A DNA stretch of 64,000 nt from Planobispora longispora (GTDB lineage Bacteria > Actinomycetota > Actinomycetes > Streptosporangiales > Streptosporangiaceae): the NCBI RefSeq assembly GCF_016863135.1, contig NZ_BOOH01000009.1, forward strand, positions 1-64,000, given 5' to 3'. Below the pieces are notes generated by a model, which made no database searches, had not been told where the DNA came from, and saw nothing but the letters and a program-made list of their open reading frames with translations. A program made the position numbers and the translations under genes. Positions 38,841 through 60,946 of this stretch are shown piece after piece (the stretch's first letter is position 1; every line of letters begins with the position of its first letter).

Positions 38841-40004
38841 ATGAGCTTCCCTCTCTACGCGCTGCCCGAAGAGCACCAGATGCTCCGGGAGACCGTCCGC
38901 GCCCTCGCCGATGAGAAGATCGCCCCCCGGGCCGCCGAGGCCGACGAGACGGGGGAGTTCCCCTGGGACGTCTACAAGGCGCTCACCGCCGCCGACCTGC
39001 ACGCCGTGCACATCCCCGAGGAGTACGGCGGCGCCGGCGCCGACGCGCTCGCGACGGTGATCGTCATCGAGGAGGTGGCGCGGGCCTGCGCGTCGTCCTC
39101 GCTGATCCCGGCGGTCAACAAGCTCGGCACCGTGCCGCTGCTGCTGTCGGCGTCGGAGGAGCTCAAGCAGCAGTACCTCGCGCCGGTCGCGCGGGGCGAG
39201 GCGATGTTCTCCTACGCCCTGTCCGAGGCCGAGGCGGGCAGCGACGCCGCGTCGATGAAGACCCGCGCGGTGGCCGACGGCGACCACTACGTGCTCAACG
39301 GCGCGAAGATGTGGATCACCAACGCCGGGGTGTCGGAGTACTACACGGTGATGGCCGTGACCGAGCCCGGCGTCGGCGCCCGCGGCATCTCCGCGTTCGT
39401 CGTGGAGAAGTCCGACGAGGGCGTCAGCTTCGGCCCGAAGGAGAAGAAGCTCGGCATCAAGGGCTCCCCGACCCGCCAGGTCATCCTGGAGGACGTCCGC
39501 ATCCCGGCGTCGCGAATGATCGGCGAGCCCGGCACCGGTTTCAAGACCGCGCTGGCCACCCTGGACCACACCCGCATCACGATCGCCGCCCAGGCGCTCG
39601 GCATCGCCCAGGGCGCGCTGGACTACGCCGTCGGCTACGTCAAGGAGCGCAAGCAGTTCGGCAAGGCCATCGCCGAGTTCCAGGGCGTGCAGTTCATGAT
39701 CGCCGACATGGCGATGAAGCTCGAGGCCGCCCGCCAGCTCACCTACGCCGCCGCGGCCAAGTCCGAGCTGGCCGCCCACGGTGAGCCCCAGGCCGACCTG
39801 ACGTTCTTCTCCAGCGCCGCCAAGTGCGCCGCCTCCGACGCCGCCATGGAGATCACCACCGACGCGGTCCAGCTCCTCGGCGGGTACGGCTACACCAGCG
39901 AGTTCCCGGTCGAGCGCATGATGCGCGACGCCAAGATCACCCAGATCTACGAGGGCACCAACCAGATCCAGCGCATGGTGATGGCCCGCCAGCTCCTCAA
40001 ATAG
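38841..40004 (+). CDS. acyl-CoA dehydrogenase
   Basis: A 387-aa FAD enzyme of beta-oxidation type. Motifs: YALSEAEAGSD and KMWITNAG for FAD and substrate, QALGIAQGALDYA, RKQFGKAIAEFQ, QLLGGYGY, and catalytic base E371 in QIYEGTNQIQR. The position of the Glu fits the short/medium-chain group. A strong terminator follows, so it is monocistronic. Substrate chain length is not read from the sequence. Confidence 0.94.
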   Translation: MSFPLYALPEEHQMLRETVRALADEKIAPRAAEADETGEFPWDVYKALTAADLHAVHIPEEYGGAGADALATVIVIEEVARACASSSLIPAVNKLGTVPLLLSASEELKQQYLAPVARGEAMFSYALSEAEAGSDAASMKTRAVADGDHYVLNGAKMWITNAGVSEYYTVMAVTEPGVGARGISAFVVEKSDEGVSFGPKEKKLGIKGSPTRQVILEDVRIPASRMIGEPGTGFKTALATLDHTRITIAAQALGIAQGALDYAVGYVKERKQFGKAIAEFQGVQFMIADMAMKLEAARQLTYAAAAKSELAAHGEPQADLTFFSSAAKCAASDAAMEITTDAVQLLGGYGYTSEFPVERMMRDAKITQIYEGTNQIQRMVMARQLLK

Positions 40005-40820: not shown

Positions 40821-42161
40821 ATGAAACACAGGGATGTGGAACTGCTCGCGATCGGTGCCGGGCCGGCGAACCTGGCTCTCGCCGTGGCGCTCGAAGAACT
40901 CGCACCCGCCAGGATGGCGGCCGACTCGCTGGTGATCGAGCAGGCCGACACCGTGGCGTGGCAGCCGGGGATGCTCCTGCCGGAGGCGCAGAGCCAGGTC
41001 TCCTTCCTCAAGGATCTCGTCACCCTGCGCAACCCGCGCAGCCGGTTCTCGTTCGTGAACTACCTGCACTCGGTGGGCCGGCTCAGCCAGTTCATCAACA
41101 TGGGGAGCCTCTGGCCGTACCGGGTCGAGATCTCCGACTACTTCAAGTGGGTCGCGGACTCCCTGTCCCGGGTGCGGCTCGAGTACTCCCGCCGCTGCAC
41201 GGCGGTCGAGCCGCTGCGGGACGCCGGGGGCACGCTCACAGGCTGGCTGACCCACCTGGCCGACGGCTCGACGATCGGCAGCCGCTACCTCGTCGTGGGG
41301 ATCGGCAGGGGGGCTTACGTCCCGGAGGAGTTCGCGGGCCTGCCGGAGCGGCGCGTCATCCACAGCACGAGGTACGTCCAGCGGATCGCCGAGCTGCCCA
41401 AGACGGTGCCGTACCGGGTGGTGGTGATCGGCAGCGGGCAGAGCGCGGCCGAGATGTTCGACGCCGTCCAGAGCGACCTGCCGGGCTGCCGGCCGACGAT
41501 GGTGATGCGGTCGATCGGCCTGAAGACGTACGAGAACAGCAAGTTCACCAACGAGCTGTACTACCCGAGCGCGGTGGACGACTTCTTCGGGGCGCGGCCC
41601 GAGGCGCGCCGGCAGATCCTCGAGGAGATGCACATCACCAACTACTCCGGCCTCAACCCGGAGACGCTGGAGAAGCTGTACAGCACGCTGTACCTCGACC
41701 GGCTGACCGGCAAGGGGCGGCTGCGGGTGGTCACGATGAACGATGTGACCTCGGCGCGCGAGGACGGCGACGAGGTCGTCCTGGAGCTGACCGACCGCAG
41801 GACGGGCGAGATCGAGGAGCTCCGCTGCGACCTGGTGCTGCTCGGCACGGGGTTCGAGCACTCGATGCCGTCGCTGGTGCGCGGCCTGGCCGACGCCCTC
41901 GGCCTGGAGCGGATCTCGGTGAACCGCACCTACCGGCTCGACGTCCCCGGTCCCGCCACCGCGGGCTGCTATCTGCAGGGCGTCAACGAGGCGACGCACG
42001 GCATCGCCGACTCGCTGCTGAGCATGCAGGCCGTGCGCGCCTGGGAGATCACCAACGACATCCTGGCCGGTCGCGCGGGCGGCGGATCCGACAGGCTCGC
42101 CGGCGAGCCGGTGGAGAGCACACCGGTGCCGGCCGCCGCCGTGCCCGTCTTCGCCGGCTGA
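40821..42161 (+). CDS. L-lysine/L-ornithine N-monooxygenase
   Basis: A 446-aa flavin N-hydroxylating monooxygenase (SidA/PvdA/IucD/Spb38 family). FAD motif AIGAGPANLAL at 10-20; the conserved QVSFLKDLVTLRNPRS and FSFVNYLH; NADPH motif VVIGSGQSAAE; C-terminal LLGTGFEHSMP. It hydroxylates the side-chain amine of lysine or ornithine; which one cannot be told by eye. GAGGAAG precedes the ATG. The gene is first of an operon with the cupin and MetRS-like genes (18-nt gap). That context favours N6-hydroxylysine for hydrazine formation over a siderophore: no NIS or NRPS synthetase and no iron box are present. Confidence 0.92.
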   Translation: MKHRDVELLAIGAGPANLALAVALEELAPARMAADSLVIEQADTVAWQPGMLLPEAQSQVSFLKDLVTLRNPRSRFSFVNYLHSVGRLSQFINMGSLWPYRVEISDYFKWVADSLSRVRLEYSRRCTAVEPLRDAGGTLTGWLTHLADGSTIGSRYLVVGIGRGAYVPEEFAGLPERRVIHSTRYVQRIAELPKTVPYRVVVIGSGQSAAEMFDAVQSDLPGCRPTMVMRSIGLKTYENSKFTNELYYPSAVDDFFGARPEARRQILEEMHITNYSGLNPETLEKLYSTLYLDRLTGKGRLRVVTMNDVTSAREDGDEVVLELTDRRTGEIEELRCDLVLLGTGFEHSMPSLVRGLADALGLERISVNRTYRLDVPGPATAGCYLQGVNEATHGIADSLLSMQAVRAWEITNDILAGRAGGGSDRLAGEPVESTPVPAAAVPVFAG

Positions 42162-42179
42162 GAGCGCGAAGGAGAGATC

Positions 42180-42590
42180 GTGGAAGTTCGCAGGCTGGAC
42201 CGGGACCGGCTGGGTCCCGCCAACAACCACTCCCAGCGGCTCATGCCGTGGGCCGCGCTCAACGCCCCCTTCGAGGGTGCGTGGTGCGTCGTCAAGCCGG
42301 GCACGGCGACCACCAGGCACGCCCACCACGAATACGAGATCTTCATCGCGGTCTCCGGTGAGGCCGTCCTCTCGTCCATGGGGGAGAGCAGCCCGTTCCG
42401 GCCCGGCGACGTGGTCCACTTCCCCCCGCACACGGATCACCAGGTGATCAACGAGGGTGACGAGGACTTCGAGATGTACGCCGTGTGGTGGGACGTCCCG
42501 ATGAGCCACCGCTTCACCGCGCGACACCAGATCGAGGACTCCGCCGCACGCGGCCACGACATGATCTTCGCCACACGGAACGAGGGCTGA
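42180..42590 (+). CDS. stand-alone cupin, putative hydrazine-synthase subunit
   Basis: A 136-aa single-domain cupin with a complete metal site. Motif 1 is G41-5x-H47-x-H49-3x-E53-6x-G60; motif 2 gives H87 and N91 after PGDVVHFPP. GTG 42180 has AAGGAG upstream. It lies between the N-hydroxylase and the MetRS-like gene, with 3 nt to the latter. In the s56-p1 pathway the hydrazine-forming enzyme Spb40 carries a zinc cupin fused to a MetRS-like domain, where the cupin catalyses the rearrangement to the N-N bond. I infer the same job here, as a separate subunit. Confidence 0.85.
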   Translation: MEVRRLDRDRLGPANNHSQRLMPWAALNAPFEGAWCVVKPGTATTRHAHHEYEIFIAVSGEAVLSSMGESSPFRPGDVVHFPPHTDHQVINEGDEDFEMYAVWWDVPMSHRFTARHQIEDSAARGHDMIFATRNEG

Positions 42591-42593
42591 CCT

Positions 42594-44219
42594 GTGAACG
42601 GACGCGACGCCGCCCGCCGGGCCATCATCATCGACACCCCGCCGACCTCCAACGGCGACCTGCACGTCGGGCACCTGGCGGGCCCGTTCATGGCGGCCGA
42701 CGTGTACGCGCGCTACCTGCGGTCGAACGGCCGTCCCGTGGTGTTCTCCAGCGGAACCGACGACAGCCAGACCTACGTGCTGGCCAGCGCCCGGCGCAAG
42801 GGGCTCACGCCGGAGGAGCTCAGCGGCAGGTCGTGGCACGAGATCCGGAGCACGCTCGCCGGCATGGGCGTCTCGCTCGACGGGTTCGCGCCGTACGACG
42901 ACCGCTACCGGGCCTCGGTGCTGACGTTCCTCACCGGGCTGCACCGGGCGGGCAAGTTCCGCGAGAGGACGGTCATGCTGCCGTACTCCGAGCGCCGGGG
43001 CGAGTACCTCGTCGAGGGCCTGGTCTGCGGTTACTGCCCGATCTGCCTGGTGGAGAGCCGGGGTGGGCTGTGCGAGACCTGCGGTCACCAGAACAACTTC
43101 GACGAGCTGATCGAGCCGCGTTCCACCGTCGACCCCGACGACGTGGTGACGCACCGCGAGGCCCGCATCCTGGTGCTGCCGATGGAGGAGTACCGCGAGC
43201 GGCTCACCGCGTACTACCGCGAGCGCGAGCCGCGGCTGCGGCCGCACACGATGCAGCTCGTGCGCGAGGTGCTGGCCCGGCCGCTGCCCGACTTCCCGAT
43301 CACCTACCCCATCGGCTGGGGCATCCCCGCGCCGTTCCCGGAGACGCCCGGGCAGCGGATCAACGCCTGGGCCGAGGGCATGCCCGCCGTCATGTACACC
43401 ACGGCGTACGCCGCCGAGCAGCTCGGCGAGCGGCACGCCGCCGACGACGAGCTGTGGCGCGCCGAGCACGACCCGGAGATCGTCTACTTCATCGGGTTCG
43501 ACAACGTCTACTTCTGGGGATTCACCCACATCGCCGCGCTGATGGCGCACGAGGGCAGGTACGCGCTGCCGGACACTTTCATCTCCAACGAGTTCTACGA
43601 GCTGGAGAACGCCAAGTTCTCCACCAGCCTCGGCCACGTGCTCTACACCAAGGACCTGCTGAAGGAGGTGCCGAGGGACCTCGTGCGCTTCTACCTCGCG
43701 ATCAGCTGTCCCGAACACCAGCAGACCAACTTCAGCCGCGAGGCGCTGGTCAAGGTGGCCGGCGACCGCCTGGTGCGGCCGTGGAACCGGCTGGCCGGGC
43801 TGCTGGGCAAGGCCGTGGCCGACTCGGGCGCCGACGGCGCGTCCCTGCCGGTGTCCGACGCGGGACGGCGGCGCGCCGAGGCCGTGATCGCCCGGTTCCG
43901 CGCCTGCTACGAGCTGTCCGGCTACAGCCTCACGCGGGCCGCCAACCTGATCGTCGGGCAGCTCGACCGGATGGTCCGCGAGGCGCGGCTCGTCCACGAG
44001 GACGCGGGCGCCGACCGGGCCAGGCTCGGCGATCTCTTCCTGGACGTGCGCGTCCTGGTGGCCTGCGCCTCGCCGATCCTGATCGACCTGGCGCGGGCCG
44101 CGGGCGAGGCGGGCGGGTTCACGTGCGGCCTGGACGCCGGCGGGTTCCGTCCCGGGCGGATCGCACCCTTCGCCCTGCCCCTGCTGGAGACCCCGGCGGG
44201 CGCGGCGGACGCACGCTGA
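42594..44219 (+). CDS. methionyl-tRNA-synthetase-like amino-acid-activating enzyme
   Basis: A 541-aa class I MetRS homologue. HIGH motif is HVGH at 24-27; the KMSKS motif is KFSTS at 341-345; a zinc knuckle has C145, C148, C160 and C163; GFDNVYFWG corresponds to the MetRS active-site strand. A helical C-terminal domain is present but no EMAP-type tRNA-binding extension. Housekeeping MetRS would not sit between a cupin and an oxygenase. In the related pathway such a protein adenylates glycine (or another amino acid) and esterifies the N-hydroxylamine of hydroxylysine. GTG 42594 follows the cupin stop by 3 nt, so the two are tightly coupled. Confidence 0.88.
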   Translation: MNGRDAARRAIIIDTPPTSNGDLHVGHLAGPFMAADVYARYLRSNGRPVVFSSGTDDSQTYVLASARRKGLTPEELSGRSWHEIRSTLAGMGVSLDGFAPYDDRYRASVLTFLTGLHRAGKFRERTVMLPYSERRGEYLVEGLVCGYCPICLVESRGGLCETCGHQNNFDELIEPRSTVDPDDVVTHREARILVLPMEEYRERLTAYYREREPRLRPHTMQLVREVLARPLPDFPITYPIGWGIPAPFPETPGQRINAWAEGMPAVMYTTAYAAEQLGERHAADDELWRAEHDPEIVYFIGFDNVYFWGFTHIAALMAHEGRYALPDTFISNEFYELENAKFSTSLGHVLYTKDLLKEVPRDLVRFYLAISCPEHQQTNFSREALVKVAGDRLVRPWNRLAGLLGKAVADSGADGASLPVSDAGRRRAEAVIARFRACYELSGYSLTRAANLIVGQLDRMVREARLVHEDAGADRARLGDLFLDVRVLVACASPILIDLARAAGEAGGFTCGLDAGGFRPGRIAPFALPLLETPAGAADAR

Positions 44220-44275
44220 CCCACGTTCGATCCCTCAGTGAATGTGCCTTCAGTGAATGTGGATGGTGGAACACA

Positions 44276-45259
44276 GTGCTATCGATGATCACGCAGACCC
44301 CGGCGCCCAGCGTCGTGCTGGACGGCGCGGACACCGCCGGAGTGCGCGGGGCGGTGCTCGCGGCGCGCTCGTGCGGCGGCCGCGTGGTGGACGACCCCAT
44401 GACGCTGGCCGCGGCCCGGAACTCCTCCGACCTGCTGCCCCCGACGCTGCGCCGTGTCCTGCGCGAGTTCCGCAGGCACTCCGGCCCGACGGGATCGCTG
44501 CTCGTGCGCGGGATGCCGGTCGACGAGACCCTGCTGCCCGCGACCCCCACGGCGGACGGTTCCGTGCAGCGCTCGCTGAGCGACCCCGCCACGATGCTCC
44601 TGCTCGTCGCGTGCGCGCTCGGCGACCCGATCGCCTTCCGCGCGGAGAAGTCCGGCGCGCTGGTGCAGGACGTCGTCCCCGTGCCGGGCAAGGAGGAGTT
44701 CCAGGGCAACGCCGGCTCGGTCATGTTGTCCTTCCACAACGAGAACGCCTTCCACGAGCACCGGCCCGACTACGTCATGCTCCTGTGCCTGCGGCCCGAC
44801 CACGACCGCGTCGCGGGCCTGCGCACCGCCTGCTCGCGTGAGGTCCTCCCCCTGCTGACGGAGGAGACGCGGCGGGCGCTGTTCCTGCCGGAGTTCGTCA
44901 CCGAGGCTCCCCCCTCGTTCGGCGCGAACCGCGACGCCACCTTCCCGCACGGCGTGCTCTCCGGCGCCCCGGAAGATCCCGACATGCGGGTCGACCTCGC
45001 CGCCACCACGCCGCTGACGCCGCGTGCCGAGGCCGCGCTGGCCGAGCTCGGCGAGGTGTTCGACCGGAGCGCGCAGAGCGTACGGCTGCTCCCCGGGGAC
45101 CTCGTCATCGTCGACAACCGGGTCACCGTGCACGGGCGCACCGCCTTCCAGCCGCGTTACGACGGCCGTGACCGCTGGCTCCAGCGCACGTTCGTCGCCG
45201 TGAACCTGCGCAGGTCACGGGACCACCGTCCCGCCGACGGCCACGTCCTGGAACGCTAG
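44276..45259 (+). CDS. Fe(II)/2-oxoglutarate oxygenase, AsnO/VioC-like
   Basis: A 327-aa clavaminate-synthase-like oxygenase. Metal ligands H154 and E156 in FHNENAF and H286 in VTVHGRTAF; 2-oxoglutarate Arg R304 in LQRTF. These positions nearly match the asparagine oxygenase AsnO. Known relatives hydroxylate free Asn, Arg or Lys at C3 or C4. GTG 44276 has GGTGGA 5 nt upstream; ATG 44285 is the alternative. A direct repeat TCAGTGAATGTG lies upstream at 44235 and 44250. It probably hydroxylates an amino-acid building block of the cluster product. Confidence 0.88.
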   Translation: MLSMITQTPAPSVVLDGADTAGVRGAVLAARSCGGRVVDDPMTLAAARNSSDLLPPTLRRVLREFRRHSGPTGSLLVRGMPVDETLLPATPTADGSVQRSLSDPATMLLLVACALGDPIAFRAEKSGALVQDVVPVPGKEEFQGNAGSVMLSFHNENAFHEHRPDYVMLLCLRPDHDRVAGLRTACSREVLPLLTEETRRALFLPEFVTEAPPSFGANRDATFPHGVLSGAPEDPDMRVDLAATTPLTPRAEAALAELGEVFDRSAQSVRLLPGDLVIVDNRVTVHGRTAFQPRYDGRDRWLQRTFVAVNLRRSRDHRPADGHVLER

Positions 45260-45324
45260 GCGTCCTGCGGGACGGACCGGAGCGGGTCGGGCTGGAGCGC
45301 GGCCCGGACGGGCGGTGCGGCAAG

Positions 45325-45349
45325 GGCCGGTCTCCGCGGGAGACCGGCC
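45325..45349. terminator. bidirectional stem-loop between converging cluster genes
   Basis: Perfect 11-bp arms GGCCGGTCTCC and GGAGACCGGCC with loop GCG. It abuts the stop of the FAD protein gene and serves both converging transcripts. Confidence 0.75.
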
Positions 45350-47328
45350 TACGCCGCACGCCCGCCGCCCGCGTATCCACGCCCGTGCTCATGCGCCGGA
45401 CGCAGCACGTGTTCCTGCGCCGAGCGCAGCCCGTGTTCCTGTACCTGCTGCGGCGCGTGTTCCCGCGCGCCGAGGAAGCGGAGCACCTCCCGGGCGAGCC
45501 GGTCGTTCTGCCGGAACGACGGCGCGTTGGTGCGGGGCCGGGCGAACGTCGCGAACTGCCGGATGTTGGTGAAGGGGCCGAGCGCGAAGCGGCGGGGATG
45601 CGGGACGCCGTTCCTGGACAGGACGCGGAAGTCCTCGGGTGAGACGTGCAGCAGCCCGGTGCGGTGCACGTATCCGTCGTCGCCGGCCAGTGTGTGCTCG
45701 GCCGCGTCGCCGCGACGGTACATCGACCGCAGCAGCGGCTCGGTGCACGTGCGCAGGTCGGCGTCGGGCAGCCGCGCCTCGATCAGGGCGGACGCCTCGA
45801 CGGTGTCCGGCGTGTTCGCGCCGCTCGCCCGGTACACGCCCTTCTCCTCGTCGATCTCGACGCACATGCCGGCGCCGACGAACCGGACGACGCCGGCCTC
45901 CGCGAGCGCGAGGAGCTGGCGGGTCCTCGTGCCGGGCGAGCCGCTGCCGAAGTACTCGAAGAAGCTCTGCCACCATCCGTTGAGGTCCTCGACGCGCGAG
46001 CGGACGGGCAGCCCGGCGACGCACTTCAGCAGCGGCATCTGGCCGTACACCGACAGCAGGGCGAGAAAAGCCCCGAGGTCGGCGCTGTGGCGGCGGTCCG
46101 AGCGCCGGTCTATGTCCGCCCTGATGTGGTCGCGGAGGTGTTCCTGCAGCTCGTCGGAGCATGGGAGGTCCAGCCCGCGCAGCGGCCTGTCGAGCGCGGC
46201 GAAGTCCAGGCGGTCCGCCTCGGCGGGGACGGACGCCTCGATCAGGGCGCACATCGGCTCGCCGTCCCAGTCCAGGCCGGCGTAGGCGGCGGCGAACTCC
46301 TCCCACGGGATCGCGACACGGTCCGGGTGGGCGGTGAACAGCTCGTGGTAGTAGCCGTAGGCGATCTCCTTGGCCATGAGCGGCCACAGGTCGGCCCAGA
46401 AGTCGATGCGATCGCGACCGGCGAACCGCGCGTCGACCTCGGGCGCGGAGAAGAAGCGCGGCAGCGGCGCGGGGTCGCCCGCCAGCCGGTAGGAGATCTT
46501 CGAGCGGTACGGCACCCCGCGGCGCGACCCGACGTGCAGCCGGGGCTCCCTGCCGGAGGGGACGTAGCGCAGCCGGCCGTCCTCCCGCTCGACGTACTCG
46601 CCGCCGCGCCCCTCGGTGAGCAGCACCATCAGGTCGATGAACGCGGCCCCCATGCCGCGCATCAGCACGTCCTCACCCGGCCTGAACATCGACAGATCAG
46701 CGTCGGCCGAATAGGCGCACGGCAGGTAGCGCAGGCCGTGGCGGTCGGCGAAGTCGGCGAGGAGCCGATGGTCCTTGCCGGGGACGGCGTCCAGGTGCCC
46801 CATGGTGAGGATCACCACGTCCGCCGTCAGCGGCTCGTCCCGGTCCTCCAGCCATACGCGCTGGCGGGTGCGCGCGCCGCCCTCGATCTGCGCGGCCCGG
46901 GTCGCGTGCACGCGCACGGAGACGTTCGCCGGGCGCTCAGCGACGATCTTGTCGAAGACCCAGCGCAGGTAGCGGCTCTGCACCTGGCGGGTGGCGAACG
47001 TCGTGCACGTGACGTCGGTGCAGGCGCCGTCGGCGGCGGCCCACTCGCTCAGGGACGGCCCCGTGCGGAGCGGCCCCTCCAGGGTCACGGTCTCGTCGGG
47101 GAACATGGTGACGTTCTCGGCCGTGGCGTTCATCCACATCAGCGGCGACTGCTCCGCGCGCCACACCCTCCCGGCGCCCGGTGGATAGGGGTCGACGAGC
47201 TCGATGCTCAGCGGTCGGGTCGGCGGCAGCTCGGCGGCGTTGGCCAGGAGGCGCTCCAGCACTCCCGTCCCCCGGGGCCCCGCGCCCACGATAACGACGA
47301 CGAACGGATCGTTCTGCGTGTTTCTCAT
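45349..47328 (-). CDS. FAD/NAD(P)-binding protein of the biosynthetic cluster
   Basis: A 659-aa protein with an N-terminal dinucleotide fold: VVIVGAGPRGTGVLERLL at 11-28, typical of the FAD/NAD(P)-binding family of large flavoproteins (PF13454-like). WMNATAENVTMFPDE and GAAFIDLMVLLTEGRGG are further conserved-looking segments. The last 30 residues are a His/Gln/Glu-rich repeat tail (QEHGLR, QEHVLR, HEHGRG). The reaction is unknown; within an N-N cluster it may oxidise or cleave the hydrazine intermediate, a role played by an unrelated glycine-oxidase-like protein (Spb39) in s56-p1 synthesis. The ATG has a weak ribosome site. Confidence 0.75.
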   Translation of the reverse strand: MRNTQNDPFVVVIVGAGPRGTGVLERLLANAAELPPTRPLSIELVDPYPPGAGRVWRAEQSPLMWMNATAENVTMFPDETVTLEGPLRTGPSLSEWAAADGACTDVTCTTFATRQVQSRYLRWVFDKIVAERPANVSVRVHATRAAQIEGGARTRQRVWLEDRDEPLTADVVILTMGHLDAVPGKDHRLLADFADRHGLRYLPCAYSADADLSMFRPGEDVLMRGMGAAFIDLMVLLTEGRGGEYVEREDGRLRYVPSGREPRLHVGSRRGVPYRSKISYRLAGDPAPLPRFFSAPEVDARFAGRDRIDFWADLWPLMAKEIAYGYYHELFTAHPDRVAIPWEEFAAAYAGLDWDGEPMCALIEASVPAEADRLDFAALDRPLRGLDLPCSDELQEHLRDHIRADIDRRSDRRHSADLGAFLALLSVYGQMPLLKCVAGLPVRSRVEDLNGWWQSFFEYFGSGSPGTRTRQLLALAEAGVVRFVGAGMCVEIDEEKGVYRASGANTPDTVEASALIEARLPDADLRTCTEPLLRSMYRRGDAAEHTLAGDDGYVHRTGLLHVSPEDFRVLSRNGVPHPRRFALGPFTNIRQFATFARPRTNAPSFRQNDRLAREVLRFLGAREHAPQQVQEHGLRSAQEHVLRPAHEHGRGYAGGGRAA

Positions 47329-47455
47329 TTATGCACCCGGTCCATAGGTCAGGAAATTGTTGACGGCGGCGCCCGGCCCCGGATTTCCGGGGAGGCGATT
47401 CGTTCCGCTCACAACACTGCGCGCCGCGGGGCCCGCGAACCAGGGATACGGAAGT

Positions 47456-47487
47456 CAGCAAGTTGCCCGGCGCCGACAGCTTCCTGC
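47456..47487. promoter_or_regulatory. shared 32-bp cluster element, copy 1
   Basis: Quasi-palindrome with arms CAGCAAGTTGCC and GACAGCTTCCTGC. It shares 25 of 32 positions with the copy at 51976, and the differences fall mostly in the centre. It lies 128 nt upstream of the FAD protein start. This pattern is expected of an operator for a dimeric regulator. Confidence 0.6.
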
Positions 47488-47545
47488 AACCGGCGTGGAT
47501 AAAAGAACGCGTGAAGAAAGAATGAAAGGCGTCGAGAATGACGAG

Positions 47546-47586
47546 AGCCCCCGCCGGAGAGCCTTTCGGCGTGCCCGGCGGGGGCT
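47546..47586 (-). terminator. stem-loop after the questin-oxidase-like gene
   Basis: Perfect 12-bp arms AGCCCCCGCCGG and CCGGCGGGGGCT with a 17-nt loop, just downstream of the questin-oxidase-like stop on the minus strand. Confidence 0.65.
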
Positions 47587-47612
47587 GGAGGGGGAGGGGG
47601 CCGTGCGGCCGG

Positions 47613-48662
47613 TCAGCGGCTGAGGAGCAGCCGGACGCGGGTCGCCGCGGCCAGCGCGTCCGGGTTCCCGGTGCGCGTGAAGACCTCGGCCGCGGTGTCG
47701 GTGAACTTGAGCACGTGCTCGTCCCCGTGGGCGACGGCCGCCGCCATCACGTCGTGCAGGGCGTCGGGGCCCGCGGGCGCGTCCGGCAGGCTGTCCCGCG
47801 GCGCGGCCCGCACCGGCTCGAACGCCGCCTGCACCCCGGCGCAGGCGGACCAGATGGCCGACAGGCTCGGCACCCACAGCTCGCGGGGCAGCGCGGGCAG
47901 CGTGTGCAGCACGGCGTTCGGCGCGGTCGCGGTGTGCACGAGGATCACCGGGCTCGCGTGCCCGTGGCTGAGATAGCGCAGCGTCGCGGCGTCCACCAGG
48001 GCTTCCAGCCGCGCCGGGACGTCGTCCGGGGTGAGCGCGGGCCGCAGCGCGGCGACCGCGTCCGGCCAGCCGGGCAGGCCGGGAAGCTGGCCGAGGCGGG
48101 TCCTGACCGGCCCGTCCTGGGAGGGGACCCGCGGAATGTTCTCCATGGCCTCGCCGGGGTCCAGGTCGCCACCGGGTTCGGCGGTCACCGGCATGCGCAG
48201 CGAGCGCGCCCCCCAGAAGGCCAGGCCCTGGGCCAGTTCGGCCGCCGCCGGCGCGTTCCGCTCGTCGGTCAGCAGGGTGCGCACGGCGTGGGAGACCCTG
48301 ATGACCGCGTGGGTGGTGCCCGCGAGGATGCCGGGGAGCAGCCGGGGCCACCAGACCGCCAGCACCTCGCGCCACGGCCGTTCGGCGACCTGGCGGGTGA
48401 AGTACTCGGCCCAGTCGCCCACGCGGTCGCCGTCGCCCAGCGCCTCCCGCCAGTTCGCGTCGCGGATCGGGTCGCCGGCGGACGGCAGGTCGTCGAGGCG
48501 GCGGGCGTAGGCGTCGATCCAGCGGTGCACGCCGTCCTCGTGGCCGCGCCGGACCAGCACCTCGACGGCCATCGGCCCGTGGTTGGTGAGCCGGCTCTCC
48601 CCCCATTCGGGGCCGGTGCCCCGGAACCGTTCGTACGCCTCGTTCAGGATTGCGCTGCTCAT
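47613..48662 (-). CDS. questin-oxidase-like (DUF4243) protein
   Basis: A 349-aa protein resembling the questin oxidase family: N-terminal LNEAYERFRGTGPEW and NHGPMAVEVLVRRG, and the central THAVIRVSHAVR with repeated His. In fungi such proteins carry out Baeyer-Villiger-like ring opening in GedK/AflY-type pathways; bacterial members are mostly uncharacterised. ATG 48662 has GGGAG upstream. It is divergent from the ATP-grasp gene and oriented with the FAD gene. It may be a tailoring oxidase; that is inference from location only. Confidence 0.72.
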   Translation of the reverse strand: MSSAILNEAYERFRGTGPEWGESRLTNHGPMAVEVLVRRGHEDGVHRWIDAYARRLDDLPSAGDPIRDANWREALGDGDRVGDWAEYFTRQVAERPWREVLAVWWPRLLPGILAGTTHAVIRVSHAVRTLLTDERNAPAAAELAQGLAFWGARSLRMPVTAEPGGDLDPGEAMENIPRVPSQDGPVRTRLGQLPGLPGWPDAVAALRPALTPDDVPARLEALVDAATLRYLSHGHASPVILVHTATAPNAVLHTLPALPRELWVPSLSAIWSACAGVQAAFEPVRAAPRDSLPDAPAGPDALHDVMAAAVAHGDEHVLKFTDTAAEVFTRTGNPDALAAATRVRLLLSR

Positions 48663-49197
48663 CGTCGTCTCCCGAGGATCGTGCCGGGCCACCACCGCGA
48701 GGACGCCGCTCGCGCCCCCGGTCCGCAGGAAAGCCTAACCCCGGTGCGCGTCGGCAGGCACTCCCGGATTCGCCCCCGGTGTCCGGAATGATGACCAAAG
48801 CACAATCGAAGAAGACACCCGTGACGGGAGCGTATTGACTGGACGCAGGGCAGAGGAGATGGTCTGATGCGCGAAAGCGTGACCGATGGCATCGAATTTC
48901 ACGAAGCCCGCCCGGTCGCGCCATTCATCGATGCCGGCCACGCCGTTCGCGCGTCCGTTTCCGTACGGCGGGGGCCGGTGAACCGCGCCCCCCGCCCGTC
49001 GCGGCGGTCGCGCCCTCCCGTTTCCGGTTCTGATCCCGGTTCCGTCTCGACGGGATTCCCCGGCCGGAGCGCCGGTCCGGATTCCGCCGGTCGTCGTCCG
49101 CGACCCGGCGGGACCGGTGGGGGATGCCCTCCGGCGCGTTCCCTCGCCCTGAGCACTATCCACCACCGGCTGACACCTGTTCAGGGAATCGGACATC
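48663..49197. other. divergent promoter region inside the cluster
   Basis: 535 bp between the questin-oxidase-like and ATP-grasp genes. No gene is supported: the small frame from 48867 lacks a ribosome site and family features. It should carry promoters in both directions; TATTGACT near 48834 is -35-like on the plus strand. A degenerate GCAGGAAAGCC at 48726 vaguely recalls half of the shared cluster element. No iron box is seen. Confidence 0.4.
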
Positions 49198-50571
49198 ATG
49201 ACCACTGACACGAACTCGTCCCGCCCGCCCGCCATCCTGTTCATGGGCGACATGGTGATCGTCGCCAGGCAGCTCCGGCTCATCACCGAGGCGCACCGCC
49301 GGGGATACGCCCCGCTGCTGGTCGTCACGCCCGACACCGACCCCGGCGAACTCGCGGCCTGCCGCGCCGACGCCGCGCACCCCCTGTCGCTGCTGGCGGA
49401 CGTCGTCAACGTCGCCGAGCCGAAGGTCGACCTGGTGGTGCCCGCCGTCCAGCCGCTCCTGCGACGCTACGACGTGCGCGGCGTACTGTGCATCGGGGAC
49501 CTCTTCGTGGAGCCCGTGGGCATGGTCGCCGCCTGCCTGAACCTGCCGGGCGCGGGGGCGGGCGCCAGCCGCACCAGCCGCAACAAGCTGCTGCAGCGCA
49601 CGACCGTTCCGCACCTGTCACCGGATTTCCGCGTGGTCACCCCCGGGGAGCGGGAGGGCTTCCCCGTCGACGGCATCTCGTTCCCCGTCGTCGTCAAGCC
49701 GGTCGGGCGCTTCTCCAGCCTCGGCGTGCGCCAGGTGAAGAACCCCGAGGACCTTCCCGCGATCCTCGCGACCTACCCCGAGGACGAGACGGTGCTCGTC
49801 GAGAGCCGCGTGGTCGGGCCCGAGTTCTCCGTCGAGGCCCTCACCCAGAACGGCGAGGTCATCTGGGCGGGCGTCACCGGCAAGGCCACCAACGAGTCCA
49901 CCGGCGTCTTCTTCACCGAGATGGGCCACACCTCGCCCGCGCGGCTGCCGGAGGAGGACGTCAGGGCCCTGCTGGACGCCAACGCCGAGGTGTTGCGCCG
50001 CATCGGCTTCGGCGACGGCATCACCCACGCCGAGTTCCGGCTCTCGGAGGGGCGCGCGGTGCTGATGGAGGTGGCCACGCGCCTGCCGGGCGACGGCATC
50101 ACCTTCCTGTGGCACCTCGCCACCGGGCAGCCGCTGGAGCCCGTCATGATCGACCTCGCCCTGGGCGAGCCCGCCTCCTACCCGGCCCCCCGCCGCCGGG
50201 CCTACCAGGTCTACCTGGAGCACCCGTACGGCAGCCTGCTCGACGTGACGAGCACCGGGGCCCCGGTGTCCTGGGTGTCGGTCGACAACGACTGGCCGGT
50301 CTTCGAGCCGGTCGCCGGCGACGCGCCCCCGCGCGACCACGCCGTCCTGGTCACCCAGCGGCCGGGAGCCGTGCTCGGCCCGCAGACCGACTCCGAGGCG
50401 CGTTCGGTCTCCGTCATCTTCGACGCCCCCCTGGACGCGCCGGCGGACGGCCTCGCAGACGAGTACACCGCCGCGGTGACGATCAGAGTGGCGGACGCGG
50501 CCCCCGCCGAGGACGGGGCGACCGAGAGCGGGGCGGGCCGGGCGCTCGCGGACGCCGGGAGCCGTTCGTGA
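49198..50571 (+). CDS. ATP-grasp ligase
   Basis: A 457-aa ATP-grasp carboxylate-amine ligase. N-terminal Rossmann-like part AILFMGDMVIVARQL; ATP-lysine strand PVVVKPVGRFSSLGV; acceptor/Mg region HAEFRLSEG then VLMEVATRLPGD. The last 60 residues are an acidic, low-complexity tail. Such enzymes form peptide bonds in small NRPS-free pathways by acyl-phosphate. It overlaps the next gene as GTGA, so the two probably act in sequence. Substrates are unknown; a hydroxylated or hydrazino amino acid from this cluster is the natural candidate. Confidence 0.88.
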   Translation: MTTDTNSSRPPAILFMGDMVIVARQLRLITEAHRRGYAPLLVVTPDTDPGELAACRADAAHPLSLLADVVNVAEPKVDLVVPAVQPLLRRYDVRGVLCIGDLFVEPVGMVAACLNLPGAGAGASRTSRNKLLQRTTVPHLSPDFRVVTPGEREGFPVDGISFPVVVKPVGRFSSLGVRQVKNPEDLPAILATYPEDETVLVESRVVGPEFSVEALTQNGEVIWAGVTGKATNESTGVFFTEMGHTSPARLPEEDVRALLDANAEVLRRIGFGDGITHAEFRLSEGRAVLMEVATRLPGDGITFLWHLATGQPLEPVMIDLALGEPASYPAPRRRAYQVYLEHPYGSLLDVTSTGAPVSWVSVDNDWPVFEPVAGDAPPRDHAVLVTQRPGAVLGPQTDSEARSVSVIFDAPLDAPADGLADEYTAAVTIRVADAAPAEDGATESGAGRALADAGSRS

Positions 50572-51806
50572 GCGACGCCCCGGCCCCGGCCCCGGCCCCG
50601 GTCCAGGTCCCGGCCTTCGCCGACGTGACGGGCGGCATGGACCCCGCGCGCTGGGACGCGCTCGCCCGGGACCATTTCTACTCGTCGGTCAACTGGCTGC
50701 GCTTCTGCGCGGGGGACGGCGGCATCACCACCGGCGGCCTGCACCTGGAGGCGCCGGGCGCCGGAACGGTCGGCGTTCCGGTGACGGCCGTGCGCTCGAT
50801 CGGCAACCCCTTCTACCAGTGGGACCGCATCCTCGGCGAGGCGGGACTCCCGTCGCCGGGCCCGAGCGGGCTGCTCGTCGGCGCGCACCGGGGATACCAG
50901 GCGAACATCCTCGCCTCGCCGGGCATCTCCCGCGAGCAGGCCGCCAAGGAGCTCCTGTGCGGCCTGGAGGACCTCGCCGGCGAGCTCGCCGCCGCGGGCG
51001 CCGCGGGACCGCTCCCGGCCGGCGCCTCCGGCGGCCGGGACGCGGGGGCCGTCCCCACCGTCGCGATGTTCCTCTCCACGCCGGACGTCGTCGCGCTGCG
51101 GGCCGCCGGGGTGCGGGCCATGCCGGTGGCGCTCCAGCCGGACGCCTGGATCCCCCTGCCCGAGGGCGGCGGCTGGGACGAGTGGATGCGCTCGCTGCCC
51201 TCCAAGCGGCGGGCCGACATCGTCCGCAGGGACCGCAGGAACTTCCTGGAGGCCGGCTACGAGGTCGTCCACACCACGCTCGGCGAGTGCGGCCCGCAGG
51301 CCGCCCGGCTGCTGGCGTGCACCGAGCGCCGGTACGGCCACGACGCCGACGTCGAGGAGCTGGCGGAGTCCATCCGCATCCAGGCCGAGGCGCTCGGCGC
51401 GGACGCCCGGGTGCTGCTGCTGAGCCGCCCCGGGGAGGATCCCGTCGGGTACTGCCTCTACTACATGTGGGGCGACACCCTGTACCTGCGCGCGGCGGGG
51501 TTCGACTACGACCGGCTCGCCGGGGCCGCCGAGTACTTCAACCTCGTGTACTACATCCCCCTGATCATCGCCTGCGAGAACGGCCTGCGCTGGCTGCACG
51601 CCGGCATCGAGGCCGCGGAGGCCAAGGTGCTGCGCGGCGCGGAGCTGCGCCCGCTGTGGATGCTGGACCTGTCGCGCGACAGCGTGCTCGCCGGTCGCGA
51701 CGACGACGTGCGCGCCCACAACGCGGGCCTCGTGGCCCGCTGGGGCGAGGCGTCCCCGGCGATCGCCAAGGCGCTGGTGCGCGACCTGTGGGAGCCGTTC
51801 TGCTGA
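50568..51806 (+). CDS. FemAB/GNAT-like acyl- or aminoacyl-transferase
   Basis: A 412-aa protein with an Ala/Pro start and a C-terminal GNAT-like domain of the Acetyltransf_6/FemAB-like type: SLPSKRRADIVRRDRRNF at about residue 208, then VGYCLYYMWGDTLYLRAAGFD and the helix region GLRWLHAGIEAAEAKVLRGAE. These enzymes transfer acyl or aminoacyl groups to amines, some with tRNA as donor. GTG 50568 is coupled to the ATP-grasp gene. Together the pair could make two amide bonds without an NRPS. Which donor is used is unknown. Confidence 0.78.
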   Translation: MSDAPAPAPAPVQVPAFADVTGGMDPARWDALARDHFYSSVNWLRFCAGDGGITTGGLHLEAPGAGTVGVPVTAVRSIGNPFYQWDRILGEAGLPSPGPSGLLVGAHRGYQANILASPGISREQAAKELLCGLEDLAGELAAAGAAGPLPAGASGGRDAGAVPTVAMFLSTPDVVALRAAGVRAMPVALQPDAWIPLPEGGGWDEWMRSLPSKRRADIVRRDRRNFLEAGYEVVHTTLGECGPQAARLLACTERRYGHDADVEELAESIRIQAEALGADARVLLLSRPGEDPVGYCLYYMWGDTLYLRAAGFDYDRLAGAAEYFNLVYYIPLIIACENGLRWLHAGIEAAEAKVLRGAELRPLWMLDLSRDSVLAGRDDDVRAHNAGLVARWGEASPAIAKALVRDLWEPFC

Positions 51807-51877
51807 CACCCTGATCCCCGGCGCGCGTCCCGCGCGGCGCCGACGGCGCGGGAAACCGCGTGAAGTCGATGTGAAGT

Positions 51878-51914
51878 GAAGAAGTCCCGTGGCCGGCGGC
51901 CACGGGACTTCTTC
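51878..51914. terminator. perfect 17-bp stem-loop after the transferase gene
   Basis: Exactly complementary 17-nt arms (51878-51894 and 51898-51914) with loop GGC, beginning GAAGAAGTCCCG. No T-run. It ends the ATP-grasp/transferase operon. Confidence 0.75.
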
Positions 51915-51975
51915 GTGTCCGGAGGCGTGCCGGTGCTCCCGCGCGCCGCCCGGGGCCGTCACGCCCGGCGGCAGG

Positions 51976-52007
51976 CAGCAAGCTGCCAGGGCGGGGCAGC
52001 TTCCTGC
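51976..52007. promoter_or_regulatory. shared 32-bp cluster element, copy 2
   Basis: Same element as at 47456, with better symmetry: arms CAGCAAGCTGCC and GGCAGCTTCCTG pair at 11 of 12 positions. It lies 117 nt upstream of the MFS gene start. It could also fold as RNA, but the sharing with the FAD gene promoter argues for a protein-binding site. Confidence 0.6.
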
Positions 52008-52124
52008 CTCCGTTCTTTCTGTTCCGAGGCCCGCGGAAAGCGCAGAGTTGTTCCTGTCAGAACGAACTCCGGGGCCGATGAGAACCCATAGGGTCGGCCG
52101 CCACGATTCTAAGGGAACTTATTC

Positions 52125-53468
52125 ATGACTATTTCCGTGCTGCACACACCGGAAAACAGCGGTAATTTCGCCGCCCCGCCGCGGGAGAGCATTTCCTCCC
52201 GGCTCCTCATAAACAAGGACTTCACGAAATTCCTGCTCTCGCAGATCGTCGCGCAGTTCGCGTCGAAAAGCCTCGCGGTCATTCTTCCGCTCATGGCGGT
52301 CATCACGTTCGCCGCCACCCCGACACAGGTCGGCCTGCTGAACGCGGCCCAGTTCTTCCCCGTGTTCGTCGTCACCCTCTTCGCCGGCGCGTGGCTGGAC
52401 AGGCGCCCGCGCAGGCCCGCCCTGATCGCCGCCTACGCCGGCAACGCGATCCTCGCCGCGACCCTGCCGCTGGCCACCTCGGTCGGCCTCGTGCACGTCT
52501 ACGTGCTGTTCTTCGTGGCGTTCGGCATGGGATCGCTGATCGCCTTCTCGGACGTCGCCTACCAGGCCTACATCCCGAACCTCGTGCGCGGCGAACGGCT
52601 CGTCCAGGCGAACAGCCGGCTGGAGGTCGCGTTCTCGCTGGCCATGGTGGGCGCCCCCGGCCTCGGGGGGCTGCTGATCGGCGAGCTCGGCGGGTCCACC
52701 GCGATGGTGTCGGCCGTCGTCGCGTACGTGCTCGCCGCGATCGGCGTGCTGGCCATCCGGGCCCGCGAGAAGCACGTGCCCGCGCCGGCGCGCGGCGGAG
52801 AGGGCACGCTGAAGCGGATCGCCGAGGGCATGAAGTTCACCGCCAAGACGCCCCTGCTGCGCGTGCTGACCCTCCAGGGCGCCTGGTTCAACCTCTTCGA
52901 GCAGGCGGTGCTGACCCTCTACCTGCTGTACGGCATCCGGGTGCTGGACTTCTCGCCCCAGCTCGTCGGCCTCACGATGTCCCTCGGCGCGATCGGCGTG
53001 CTGGCGGGATCGGCCGTGGCCCGGCTCATCGGCGACAAGCTGGGCGTGACCCGCGTGCTGATCCTCGGCATGGGCGTGGCGTCCGCCGCCCCGGTCATCA
53101 TCCCCTTCGCCGCCGGGTCGCAGGCCGCGCTCATCGCCCTCACCACGTCGTCCTTCATCATCTACGGCGTCGGGATGACGGTGTTCAACATCTACGGCAT
53201 CTCGCTGCGCCAGCGCGCCACCCCCGACGGCATGCTGGCCCGGGTCTCGGCGACGTACCGGTTCCTCGCCTTCGGAGCGATCGGCGTCGGCGGCGTCGTC
53301 GGCGGCCTGGCGGGTGACTGGTTCGGCCTGCGTCCCGCCATGTTCTTCTGCATCATCGCGCTGGTCGCCGGCTGGCTCGTCTTCGCCAGGTTCCTGCCGG
53401 GCGCCGTCAAGCAGTTCGAGGACTCCGAGCGCGCCGCCGAGGCGGGGAGCGCGCCGCGACCGGCCTGA
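52125..53468 (+). CDS. MFS exporter of the biosynthetic cluster
   Basis: A 447-aa, 12-helix MFS protein of the EntS-like/MFS_3 type: QVGLLNAAQFFPVFVVTLF, GAWLDRRPRRP between helices 2 and 3, and RLVQANSRLEVAFSLA in the middle. A soluble N-terminal tail of about 30 residues precedes helix 1. It is the last gene of the cluster and probably exports the product, giving self-protection. Expression is probably shared with the FAD gene through the 32-bp element. Confidence 0.9.
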   Translation: MTISVLHTPENSGNFAAPPRESISSRLLINKDFTKFLLSQIVAQFASKSLAVILPLMAVITFAATPTQVGLLNAAQFFPVFVVTLFAGAWLDRRPRRPALIAAYAGNAILAATLPLATSVGLVHVYVLFFVAFGMGSLIAFSDVAYQAYIPNLVRGERLVQANSRLEVAFSLAMVGAPGLGGLLIGELGGSTAMVSAVVAYVLAAIGVLAIRAREKHVPAPARGGEGTLKRIAEGMKFTAKTPLLRVLTLQGAWFNLFEQAVLTLYLLYGIRVLDFSPQLVGLTMSLGAIGVLAGSAVARLIGDKLGVTRVLILGMGVASAAPVIIPFAAGSQAALIALTTSSFIIYGVGMTVFNIYGISLRQRATPDGMLARVSATYRFLAFGAIGVGGVVGGLAGDWFGLRPAMFFCIIALVAGWLVFARFLPGAVKQFEDSERAAEAGSAPRPA

Positions 53469-53493
53469 GAGGAAGGAGGACCGGCGGCCGGGA

Positions 53494-53547
53494 ACGGGAA
53501 ACGCCGCGGGGCGGAGGGAGATCCCTCCGCCCCGCGGCGTTTCCCGT
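53494..53547. terminator. 26-bp perfect stem-loop closing the cluster
   Basis: Two exactly complementary 26-nt arms (53494-53519 and 53522-53547) with a 2-nt gap, beginning ACGGGAAACGCC. It lies between the cluster MFS gene and the converging DsbA-fold gene and should stop transcription from both sides. Confidence 0.85.
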
Positions 53548-53603
53548 GAGTCCGGGCCGGCGGGCCCCGTGCCCGCTCCGCGCGTTCCCGCCGACGCCGG
53601 AGC

Positions 53604-54194
53604 TCAGCTCAGCGGGGCGCGCTCGCGCTTCAACTCGCTGAACACCGGCACCGTGGAGAGCAGTCGCATGGCGTCGATGAGCCGGTCGGCCTCGTCGGCC
53701 GCGGGGACGCTCGCGACCACCGGCCCGAAGAAGCCGGGCCCGTCGTCGATGGCGGTCACCGGGCTGCCGCTCTCGGTGCCGACCCGGGACTGCCCGAGGC
53801 GGTGGCTCTCGCCGATCGAGGTGTCGAACGCGGCGTCGTCGGCGGCGAGCAGCAGGTCGGAGGGGAGCCCGGCGTCGGCCAGCGCGGCGGCCAGCGTGTC
53901 CGGTGTGAGGTCCTCGTCGAGGTCGTGCACGCGGTGCCCGATCGCGGTGTACAGCCGGTCGACGGCCGGCTGGCCGTGCCGCTCCTCGGCGGCGGCGAGC
54001 ACGCGCAGCGCCGCGAGCGACTTCCGGTGCGCCCTGTGCAGCCGCTCGGGGATGTCCTTGCCCTCGTTGAGGATGGCCAGGCTCATGAACCGCCAGGTCA
54101 CCGACTCGCCGCGGCGTGTGGCGACGTCCCGGACCCATCGTGAGGTGCGCCAGGTGAAGGGACAGATGGGATCGAACCAGAGGGTGATGCTCAC
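53604..54194 (-). CDS. DsbA-fold mycothiol-dependent nitroreductase-like protein
   Basis: A 196-aa thioredoxin/DsbA-fold protein starting with GTG 54194 (SITLWFDPICPFTW). C11 in CPFTW is the only cysteine of the motif. It resembles the Rv2466c family that uses mycothiol to reduce nitro compounds; many such homologues have CPFT in place of CPWC. GFFGPVVASVP near the C-terminus fits the family. Stand-alone gene. Confidence 0.82.
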   Translation of the reverse strand: MSITLWFDPICPFTWRTSRWVRDVATRRGESVTWRFMSLAILNEGKDIPERLHRAHRKSLAALRVLAAAEERHGQPAVDRLYTAIGHRVHDLDEDLTPDTLAAALADAGLPSDLLLAADDAAFDTSIGESHRLGQSRVGTESGSPVTAIDDGPGFFGPVVASVPAADEADRLIDAMRLLSTVPVFSELKRERAPLS

Positions 54195-54316
54195 GGCGTC
54201 ACATCCTGTCGTCGGCGTTGTGAGGATGTCGGCGACCACGGCCGCGGCCAGGTCCAGGCTCAGACCGGCCCGGCGAGGTGCGCGGCCTCATCGTTCCATC
54301 CGCGTCGGCCCGTGTC

Positions 54317-54844: not shown

Positions 54845-54869
54845 GACGACTCCTCGGAGAACGATTCAG

Positions 54870-54935
54870 AGATCAGTGCTCTCTTGTATGAGCAATGCTC
54901 CATCTTTTCTCGGCGCGCGTCAAGAGCAGTGCTCT
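54870..54935 (-). promoter_or_regulatory. three-palindrome promoter of the SRPBCC gene
   Basis: Sites of the form AGAGCANTGCTCT: AGATCAGTGCTCT at 54870-54882 (one mismatch), TGAGCAATGCTCC at 54889-54901, and a perfect AGAGCAGTGCTCT at 54923-54935. A minus-strand -35 TTGACG lies at 54918-54923, just beside the third site, and the second site falls where the -10 should be. No regulator gene is adjacent. Confidence 0.7.
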
Positions 54936-55010
54936 CGTTTGTGTCTCCCGCTTCCTGTCGGGTCCGGGCGGAAGAGGTGAAGGAGGTCCTGGACCTCCGG
55001 CCGACGCGGG

Positions 55011-56282: not shown

Positions 56283-56350
56283 CCGGACGATGAGAGCACC
56301 AGGGCCGCCCGCGGCGCAAGCTCACGGAGTCCGCGGAGCTCACGAAGTCC

Positions 56351-56395
56351 GCGGAGCCTGCGGAGCCTGCGGAGCCTGTGGAGCTTGCGGGGCTC
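56351..56395. repeat. 9-bp tandem repeats between sigma factor and DGPF gene
   Basis: Five 9-bp units from GCGGAGCCT (three exact, then GTGGAGCTT and GCGGGGCTC), with related degenerate units back to 56323. They end in the stop codon of the DGPF gene. Confidence 0.8.
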
Positions 56396-60945: not shown

Positions 60946-60946
60946 C

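Follow-up and report, generated by a model that had tools for sequence, protein, structure and literature searches.

Introduction

The set of a flavin side-chain N-hydroxylase, a cupin and a methionyl-tRNA synthetase (MetRS)-like enzyme was predicted in 2010, along with its wide spread, and passages of that work already list 2-oxoglutarate oxygenases and flavin adenine dinucleotide (FAD) enzymes nearby (PMC2922099). The chemistry of this trio has since been demonstrated, as described in parts of PMC8664883 and of a review (PMC11705231). Here, we analysed a 64,000-nt stretch of DNA from Planobispora longispora (NZ_BOOH01000009.1, contig C9 of an 8.84-Mb genome), referred to below as the window, in which ten genes, A to J, span positions 40821 to 54239. 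Genes A, B and C very probably encode a hydrazine-synthetase set, which would join two nitrogens.

The locus shares with the s56-p1 pathway (Spb38/39/40) the logic of an N-hydroxylase acting with a cupin and a MetRS. In that pathway Spb40 is one di-domain protein that uses glycine and the oxidase Spb39 carries out cleavage, as outlined in parts of PMC11705231, whereas no Spb39-type oxidase was found here. RHS1 of Rhodococcus jostii likewise has separate cupin and MetRS-like proteins, and RHS1 and the fused PyrN have the same cupin ligand spacing. PyrN and RHS1 use N6-hydroxylysine and glutamate with a saccharopine dehydrogenase in the cluster (passages of PMC8664883), whereas none was found in the present cluster, and their gene neighbourhood differs from this one. 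The azaserine cluster, considered here in the azs-order form on Streptomyces lavendulae pSA3239, has in common with our locus an N-hydroxylase, the cupin/MetRS pair, an ATP-grasp gene and a major facilitator superfamily (MFS) gene. It also has an AzsM-type oxidase, the AzsH/I dehydrogenases and an AzsO-like nonribosomal peptide synthetase (NRPS), none of which was found in the window, whereas our locus has cupin and MetRS as separate genes and adds D, E, F, H and J. The pSA3239 gene run (L122, NC_024970.2, 112332–141612) follows the published azs order, ATP-grasp and MFS genes included. Trio clusters on Pantoea ananatis pOC5aB and Deinococcus ficus pDFI1 also combine ATP-grasp and MFS genes with no annotated NRPS or polyketide synthase (PKS), but they carry an amine oxidase, and neither D nor E was found in the stretches examined. 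Two single enzymes are also instructive. AsnO of the calcium-dependent antibiotic, which sits in an NRPS cluster, shares with D the facial triad and the residues that we take to contact its substrate, while D adjoins a predicted hydrazine synthetase. The L-aspartate N-hydroxylases of the CreE/FzmM family share with E the FAD/NADPH core, with 39.8% identity to the Streptomyces sp. V2 enzyme over nearly the full chain, but E has lost their aspartate entry chamber and has no lyase partner in the block.

Results

Gene A (40821–42161, + strand) encodes a 446-amino-acid flavin side-chain N-hydroxylase of the PvdA/KtzI/MbtG type (PF13434, 295 bits, E 7e-88). It matches PvdA at E 2e-75 and MbtG at E 6e-70, and its alignment places a Lys and two Asn at the PvdA positions that we take to bind the amino acid. 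Gene B (42180–42590, +; PF07883) encodes a stand-alone zinc cupin of the hydrazine-synthetase type, 136 amino acids long, resembling the solved cupins 4rd7, plu4264 and 5uqp (RHS1), the last at E 2e-10 and the other two with better scores. Its H47, H49, E53 and H87, which comprise the zinc ligands and the catalytic Glu, are invariant in all eight clusters of this type that we compared (the window included), and their spacing equals that of PyrN H50/H52/E56/H90 and RHS1 D63/H65/E69/H103; both cupins are zinc enzymes dependent on this Glu, according to parts of the same source (PMC8664883).

Gene C (42594–44219, +; 541 amino acids, PF09334, 223 bits) encodes a MetRS-like enzyme predicted to activate an amino acid and form an ester. 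It retains the HVGH motif and, as KFSTS, a variant of KMSKS. At the positions of E. coli MetRS N391, R395 and W461, which are presumably the anticodon-reading residues, C has R, L and D, whereas the separate housekeeping MetRS encoded on contig C26 of the host genome (L120) has N, R and W. In the alignment, 18 of 20 rows without the trio but none of 52 hydrazine-type rows have N at the N391 position. For W at the W461 position the counts are 17 of 20 and 0 of 52, and the R395 position separates the two groups less sharply, with R in 18 of 20 and in 12 of 52. In a 72-row tree, a branch with 100/100 support splits 18 housekeeping-side rows, including E. coli MetG and L120, from 54 rows that include C. 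The C proteins of the eight same-type clusters group together (support 100/98), with L083, from another family, as sister. Their tree neighbours come mostly from loci with a cupin gene, often also an N-hydroxylase gene, and include the enzyme of an azaserine-type cluster; two of the 54 rows (L033, L071) come from 4-kb loci in which neither gene was detected. Three long branches (L065, L031, L123) were flagged and left out of the interpretation. The Pantoea C falls in the same clade. C therefore does not lie among housekeeping MetRS enzymes, a placement that the initial annotation of the window had singled out for checking, and its tree position together with the lost anticodon residues rules out a housekeeping role. 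C is predicted to have lost tRNA recognition, and because the cupin ligands are also invariant and the tree sets C apart, A, B and C very probably act as the hydrazine synthetase that the initial annotation had proposed. As a separate observation, MetRS-like and cupin genes also lie side by side on plasmids of Pantoea and Klebsiella variicola; on the Pantoea ananatis plasmid (L124, NZ_CP059085.1) they are accompanied by genes for an N-hydroxylase, an oxidase, an MFS protein and an ATP-grasp enzyme, and the annotation of the surroundings shows no NRPS or PKS.

Gene D (44285–45259, +) encodes a TauD/AsnO-like Fe(II)/2-oxoglutarate oxygenase of 324 amino acids. Its best solved relative is AsnO (2og5; E 1.9e-110, 372 bits), followed by clavaminate synthase 3 at 164 bits. 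The iron triad H151/E153/H283 is invariant in the eight clusters, as are E121, N142 and D237 at the positions of AsnO E125, N146 and D241, which we take to be the asparagine-binding residues (presumably those of Strieker et al., 2007). Among 345 genomes of the order, only the five block-carrying genomes have D at an identity of at least 74%, and further relatives (49–65%, E 1e-80) occur in seven. D is thus a predicted L-asparagine 3-hydroxylase.

The presence of D is mirrored by a residue of C. Among the 52 aligned C proteins of the hydrazine type, the residue corresponding to E. coli Cys11 is Asp in nine of nine relatives with D in the locus and in none of the 43 others, which have Ser (20), Ala (19), Gly (3) or Phe (1); 23 of these 43 loci are 10.7–29 kb long. 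The Y260 position is Val in all nine and in two of the 43. Outside the alignment, C of Streptomyces sp. BHT-5-2 (L125), where D is present, reads IDTPPT, with the Asp, while the Deinococcus ficus (IIAPPPT) and S. nigrescens (TATPPT) proteins, for which no D was found, have Ala and no Asp. Because the Asp tracks with the AsnO-like gene, the alignment suggests that C activates asparagine or 3-hydroxyasparagine. The hydrazine clusters L083 and L125 have the amine oxidase and, some 8 kb downstream of C, an AsnO-like gene as well, which may represent an intermediate architecture.

Gene E (45349–47328, −; 659 amino acids, PF13454) encodes an FAD/NADPH N-hydroxylase of the CreE/FzmM family. Residues 8–620 align with the L-aspartate N-hydroxylase of Streptomyces sp. 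V2 (8cp2; E 2.7e-104), whose class-B flavin core and aspartate chamber are described in parts of PMC10404684. The flavin-core residues R13, W51 and N62 are kept in eight of eight clusters. The chamber R276/R409/R412/N413/R416 is lost as a set in all eight, with single survivors in two of them (R416 in L103, R409 in L104). In other genomes, the homologues L116 and L013 retain the complete set of five residues, and L117, L119 and L019 vary at these positions. The exchange N413E abolishes hydroxylation in the V2 enzyme (passages of PMC10404684). E looks like an N-hydroxylase, judging from these residues, but not like one for aspartate, and a role as nitrosuccinate synthase is rejected on the evidence of the pocket residues.

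No Spb39-type oxidase was matched by five queries at 1e-8 in window positions 32821–56500, and two Spb39/AzsM-type queries gave only chance matches (E 0.002 or worse) by tblastn against the whole window. Across the eight clusters of this type, the oxidase is found in none and E in all. Among a further 22 distinct clusters whose C protein falls in the same clade, counted without L086 and L088 (same genomes as L109 and L110), 15 have a clear oxidase, meaning at least 44% identity to a query, with only 82 residues showing in L094, and none has E. E is also absent from three more distant loci outside the 22 (L096, L122, L123), and in L083 and L125 it is absent while D and the oxidase are present. 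On this distribution, E may replace the Spb39-type enzyme, that is, act at the step after N-N bond formation, and this is the role that we prefer.

A flavin amine oxidase of a different family (PF01593) is encoded at 59092–60765 (+), 4.9 kb beyond J. An 80–81% homologue lies 1.9 kb beyond I in a Sphaerisporangium metagenome-assembled genome (MAG; L081 19489–19998, L148 3–1250), and none was found beside the other six clusters in about 20–56 kb per cluster. The gene occurs in four of 59 other related genomes, one of them a same-genus genome with a 96% copy and no match to C. This distribution fits a flanking gene better.

The block is more than a chance gene neighbourhood, because it recurs as a whole in four further Streptosporangiaceae genomes and its core, A-B-C-D-E-G, in three other actinomycete genera. 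Among 341 Streptosporangiaceae genomes (the window's own included), C was found at 79–94% in these four others. A scan of named genomes, made with a single protein as query and yielding 16 loci from close relatives only, added Amycolatopsis xylanica, Actinokineospora xionganensis and Dactylosporangium sp. AC04546, with C at 70–74%. The clusters were mapped in stretches of about 20 kb, the Dactylosporangium stretch ending at a contig end. A, B, C, D, E and G are present in eight of eight clusters, J in seven, F in six, and close homologues of H and I in five each. In three same-genus genomes (G001–G003) C had no match at E 1e-50. When 13 genes flanking the block were sought beside the seven other clusters over the same 20–56 kb, only two single matches appeared, the PF01593 oxidase next to the cluster of the Sphaerisporangium MAG and, roughly 5 kb away from the Microbispora cluster, a LytR_C protein (59%); a narrower test with four flanking genes found none. 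Named carriers are Sphaerisporangium melleum JCM 13064, Microbispora corallina NBRC 16416, Amycolatopsis xylanica and Actinokineospora xionganensis. The open reading frame (ORF) maps of the relatives come from a caller based on third-position GC content (GC3) that misses or merges genes, and serve as leads only; the MFS-like genes of L102–L104 were identified by eye, and L078–L081 are the same places as L098–L101.

The remaining genes surround this core. Gene F (47613–48695, −; 360 amino acids, PF14027) is questin-oxidase-like with a fold matching BTG13/PaD, and is by fold probably a non-heme iron dioxygenase, the iron chemistry itself not being claimed; its sequence profile gave only chance matches against PDB, and no paper supporting such chemistry was found in the open-licence PMC literature. 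F was dropped as a cluster-specific gene, with relatives of up to 63% in 12 of 59 other genomes, and is regarded as accessory. Gene G (49198–50571, +; 457 amino acids, PF13535) encodes an ATP-grasp ligase resembling the enzyme at the AzsJ position of azaserine-type clusters, and is 41% identical to that of the pSA3239 cluster over 92% of G. Gene H (50568–51806, +; 412 amino acids) overlaps G by 4 bases and encodes a FemAB/GNAT-like acyl- or aminoacyl-transferase, with a PF04339 score of 28.3 bits (cut-off 27) and a structure model of mean pLDDT 45.6. Gene I (52125–53468, +; 447 amino acids, PF07690, 110 bits) encodes a predicted MFS exporter. Gene J (53604–54239, −; 211 amino acids, PF22234, 182 bits, cut-off 27) encodes an Rv2466c-like protein of the mycothiol-dependent nitroreductase family. 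Copies 66–92% identical occur in six of the seven related clusters. J does not appear to be an ordinary neighbour, because, although 37 of 59 other related genomes encode a J-like protein (E 1e-40), none of these exceeds 47% identity; by this comparison it is a cluster-specific Rv2466c-like paralogue. All seven J proteins compared carry CPFT and so lack the two-cysteine motif; the Rv2466c motif, as we take it, is CPWC, with a second Cys.

All genes named in the initial annotation are present (N-hydroxylase, cupin, MetRS-like, AsnO-like, FAD, questin-oxidase-like, ATP-grasp, FemAB/GNAT-like and MFS genes), but several of its details need revision. The block as a whole is not one operon: A-B-C-D follow one another on the + strand, separated by 18, 3 and 65 bases, whereas E and F are encoded on the − strand, G opens a separate + run, I is on + and J on −. 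Its extent, 40821–53468, stopped short of J, which is kept in related clusters, so that the unit ends at 54239. Its large FAD protein exists and can be refined to a CreE/FzmM-family N-hydroxylase with an altered pocket, and the FemAB/GNAT-like gene H, also present, falls outside the core, since the three outgroup clusters lack a close homologue of it. The unit is best bounded by A and J; the PF01593 oxidase is an uncertain, optional neighbour. GC3 is 0.91–0.98 across all ten genes, there are no internal stops, and A–J contain no TTA codon, so no bldA inference is drawn.

A Pfam scan of the ten block proteins and 18 flanking proteins (23448–40001 and 54320–63914), with window positions 1–23447 and ORFs below 90 amino acids outside its scope, revealed no NRPS, PKS or carrier-protein family, and no lyase family among the matches of the block. 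Proteins from the AzsH, AzsI, AzsO and AzsP positions of pSA3239 gave only chance tblastn matches in the whole window (E 0.002 or worse).

Discussion

From the gene content, conservation, relationships and catalytic and pocket residues observed, we infer the substrates and products, what E does and in which order the steps run in a compact cluster that would assemble a small hydrazine-based metabolite without an NRPS. In this account, which we hold tentatively and with slightly less than even confidence, D would hydroxylate L-asparagine at C3 and A the side-chain amine of a diamino acid (ornithine, lysine or similar). C would adenylate asparagine or 3-hydroxyasparagine and esterify it, tRNA-free, onto the N-hydroxyl group, and the zinc cupin B would rearrange the ester to an N-N linked conjugate. 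E, no longer binding aspartate, would then oxidize the conjugate in place of an Spb39/AzsM-type amine oxidase, and G would add a further amino acid. F and H may tailor the product in some hosts, I would export it, and J may protect or reduce. A more specific version seems unlikely in its entirety: C as a (3-hydroxy)asparagine-specific hydrazine synthetase and E as a new hydrazine N-oxygenase, a flavoenzyme derived from aspartate N-hydroxylases that replaces the amine oxidase, followed by formation of a ring or an azo/diazo product. Before the ATP-grasp ligation, the distal nitrogen would close on the asparagine-derived C4 amide to give a 4-hydroxypyrazolidinone or pyrazole carboxylate, or else would be oxidized to an azo or diazo group.

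Several observations weigh against this account. The Asp of C adjoins A12, L13 and Y15 of E. coli MetRS, presumably the methionine pocket, and its contact with the substrate is only putative. The nine Asp-bearing C proteins form one clade, so their correlation with D may be a single event (the tenth, L125, stands outside the tree), and about 4 kb only is covered for 20 of the 43 loci lacking D, where a more distant D would escape notice. As for E, the oxidase is weak (34–35%) in three and not found in four of the 22 E-less clusters, and four of the 15 clusters with a clear oxidase are sources of the queries. The PF01593 oxidase, near two of the eight clusters, might do the cleavage, and E may instead act on the amine of 3-hydroxyasparagine. 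F and J were not found in the Amycolatopsis cluster, nor F in the Dactylosporangium cluster, whose stretch stops at the contig end. G may not be biosynthetic, because AzsJ is perhaps not involved in azaserine biosynthesis according to its authors (PMC10445470).

One alternative, possible but doubtful, is that E oxidizes the amine of the 3-hydroxyasparagine made by D to a hydroxylamine, oxime or nitro group, forming a second branch that G joins to the hydrazine branch, with J handling the nitro group. The co-occurrence of D and E in eight of eight clusters, the amine N-oxidation of an amino acid by the nearest solved relative of E and the nitroreductase family of J are all consistent with it, but two related clusters have D and an amine oxidase without E, and the CPFT of J lacks the second Cys that we take Rv2466c to have. 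It is improbable that E acts otherwise or late and that the conjugate either stays intact or is split by an oxidase from another locus, for example the nearby PF01593 protein. The PF01593 gene near the present cluster and its homologue in the Sphaerisporangium MAG point that way, whereas the lack of the gene beside the other six clusters and its flanking-gene-like occurrence elsewhere, including the same-genus copy without C, argue against it.

Nitrite is added to a hydrazine in triacsin biosynthesis, and if E still made nitrosuccinate or nitrite from aspartate, nitrite and the hydrazine could give a triazene, azide or N-nitroso product. We regard this as quite improbable: E is 39.8% identical to a proven L-aspartate N-hydroxylase, but the aspartate-binding set is conserved in none of the eight clusters while L116 and L013 keep all five residues, and the block's Pfam matches include no lyase. 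That the trio forms no hydrazine at all, giving instead an N-hydroxy, ester or amide product such as part of a hydroxamate siderophore, is very improbable; A does belong to the siderophore N-monooxygenase superfamily, but B has the Glu and zinc-ligand spacing of N-N cupins and C groups with proteins of cupin and N-hydroxylase loci, the azaserine-type enzyme among them. That C and its cluster work in translation, or have decayed, has a practically negligible probability, for although C has a MetRS catalytic domain, a separate housekeeping MetRS is encoded on C26, C lacks the anticodon residues, and A–J are free of internal stops, have uniformly high GC3 and keep their core in distant genera.

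The expectation of the initial annotation that the route after N-N formation must differ from s56-p1 is supported, as is its statement that no Spb39-like oxidase, NRPS, PKS or carrier protein is found. Its suggestion of lysine and glycine is only a guess; the pocket of C is unlike the one in the enzyme of a glycine-using azaserine-type cluster, and the Asp of C tracks the AsnO-like gene. Its view that the exact set is undescribed stands for the combination, which we did not find described in the open-licence PMC literature (a statement confined to that literature and not to print at large), but the trio with ATP-grasp and MFS genes and no NRPS or PKS occurs in Pantoea ananatis and Deinococcus ficus. 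What distinguishes this cluster is therefore confined to D, E, F, H and J; both the trio and NRPS- and PKS-free clusters of this kind were already known. No paper linking a hydrazine synthetase with hydroxyasparagine was found in the same literature. The product is likely a new small nitrogen–nitrogen metabolite, because the surrounding enzymes match no described cluster that we found.

If correct, this account would give hydrazine synthetases a new amino acid, tied to one visible MetRS-like residue, which would aid substrate prediction from sequence. E would, in addition, become a candidate enzyme for a so far unstudied type of hydrazine oxidation; the azaserine hydrazone oxidoreductase is still unidentified according to passages of a 2026 paper (PMC13061610). 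Two specific hypotheses, that C uses (hydroxy)asparagine and that E replaces the amine oxidase, can be tested directly in the named strains that carry the cluster.

Some observations extend beyond this cluster. The E-like proteins L114 and L115 share the altered pocket in stretches with no match to A–D, which gives no clue to the substrate, and they may act on one not yet known. L116 (G043, 8729–14098), the homologue that keeps the aspartate pocket, lies near a G-like ATP-grasp gene (42%), pairing this kind of ligase with nitrogen-oxidation chemistry. The Deinococcus ficus pDFI1 trio cluster (L131, NZ_CP021082.1) has three ATP-grasp genes. Trio clusters L105–L112 share, as judged by eye and not all in each, genes for a solute-binding protein (c3), an amidinotransferase/DDAH (c4) and a cation antiporter (c8).

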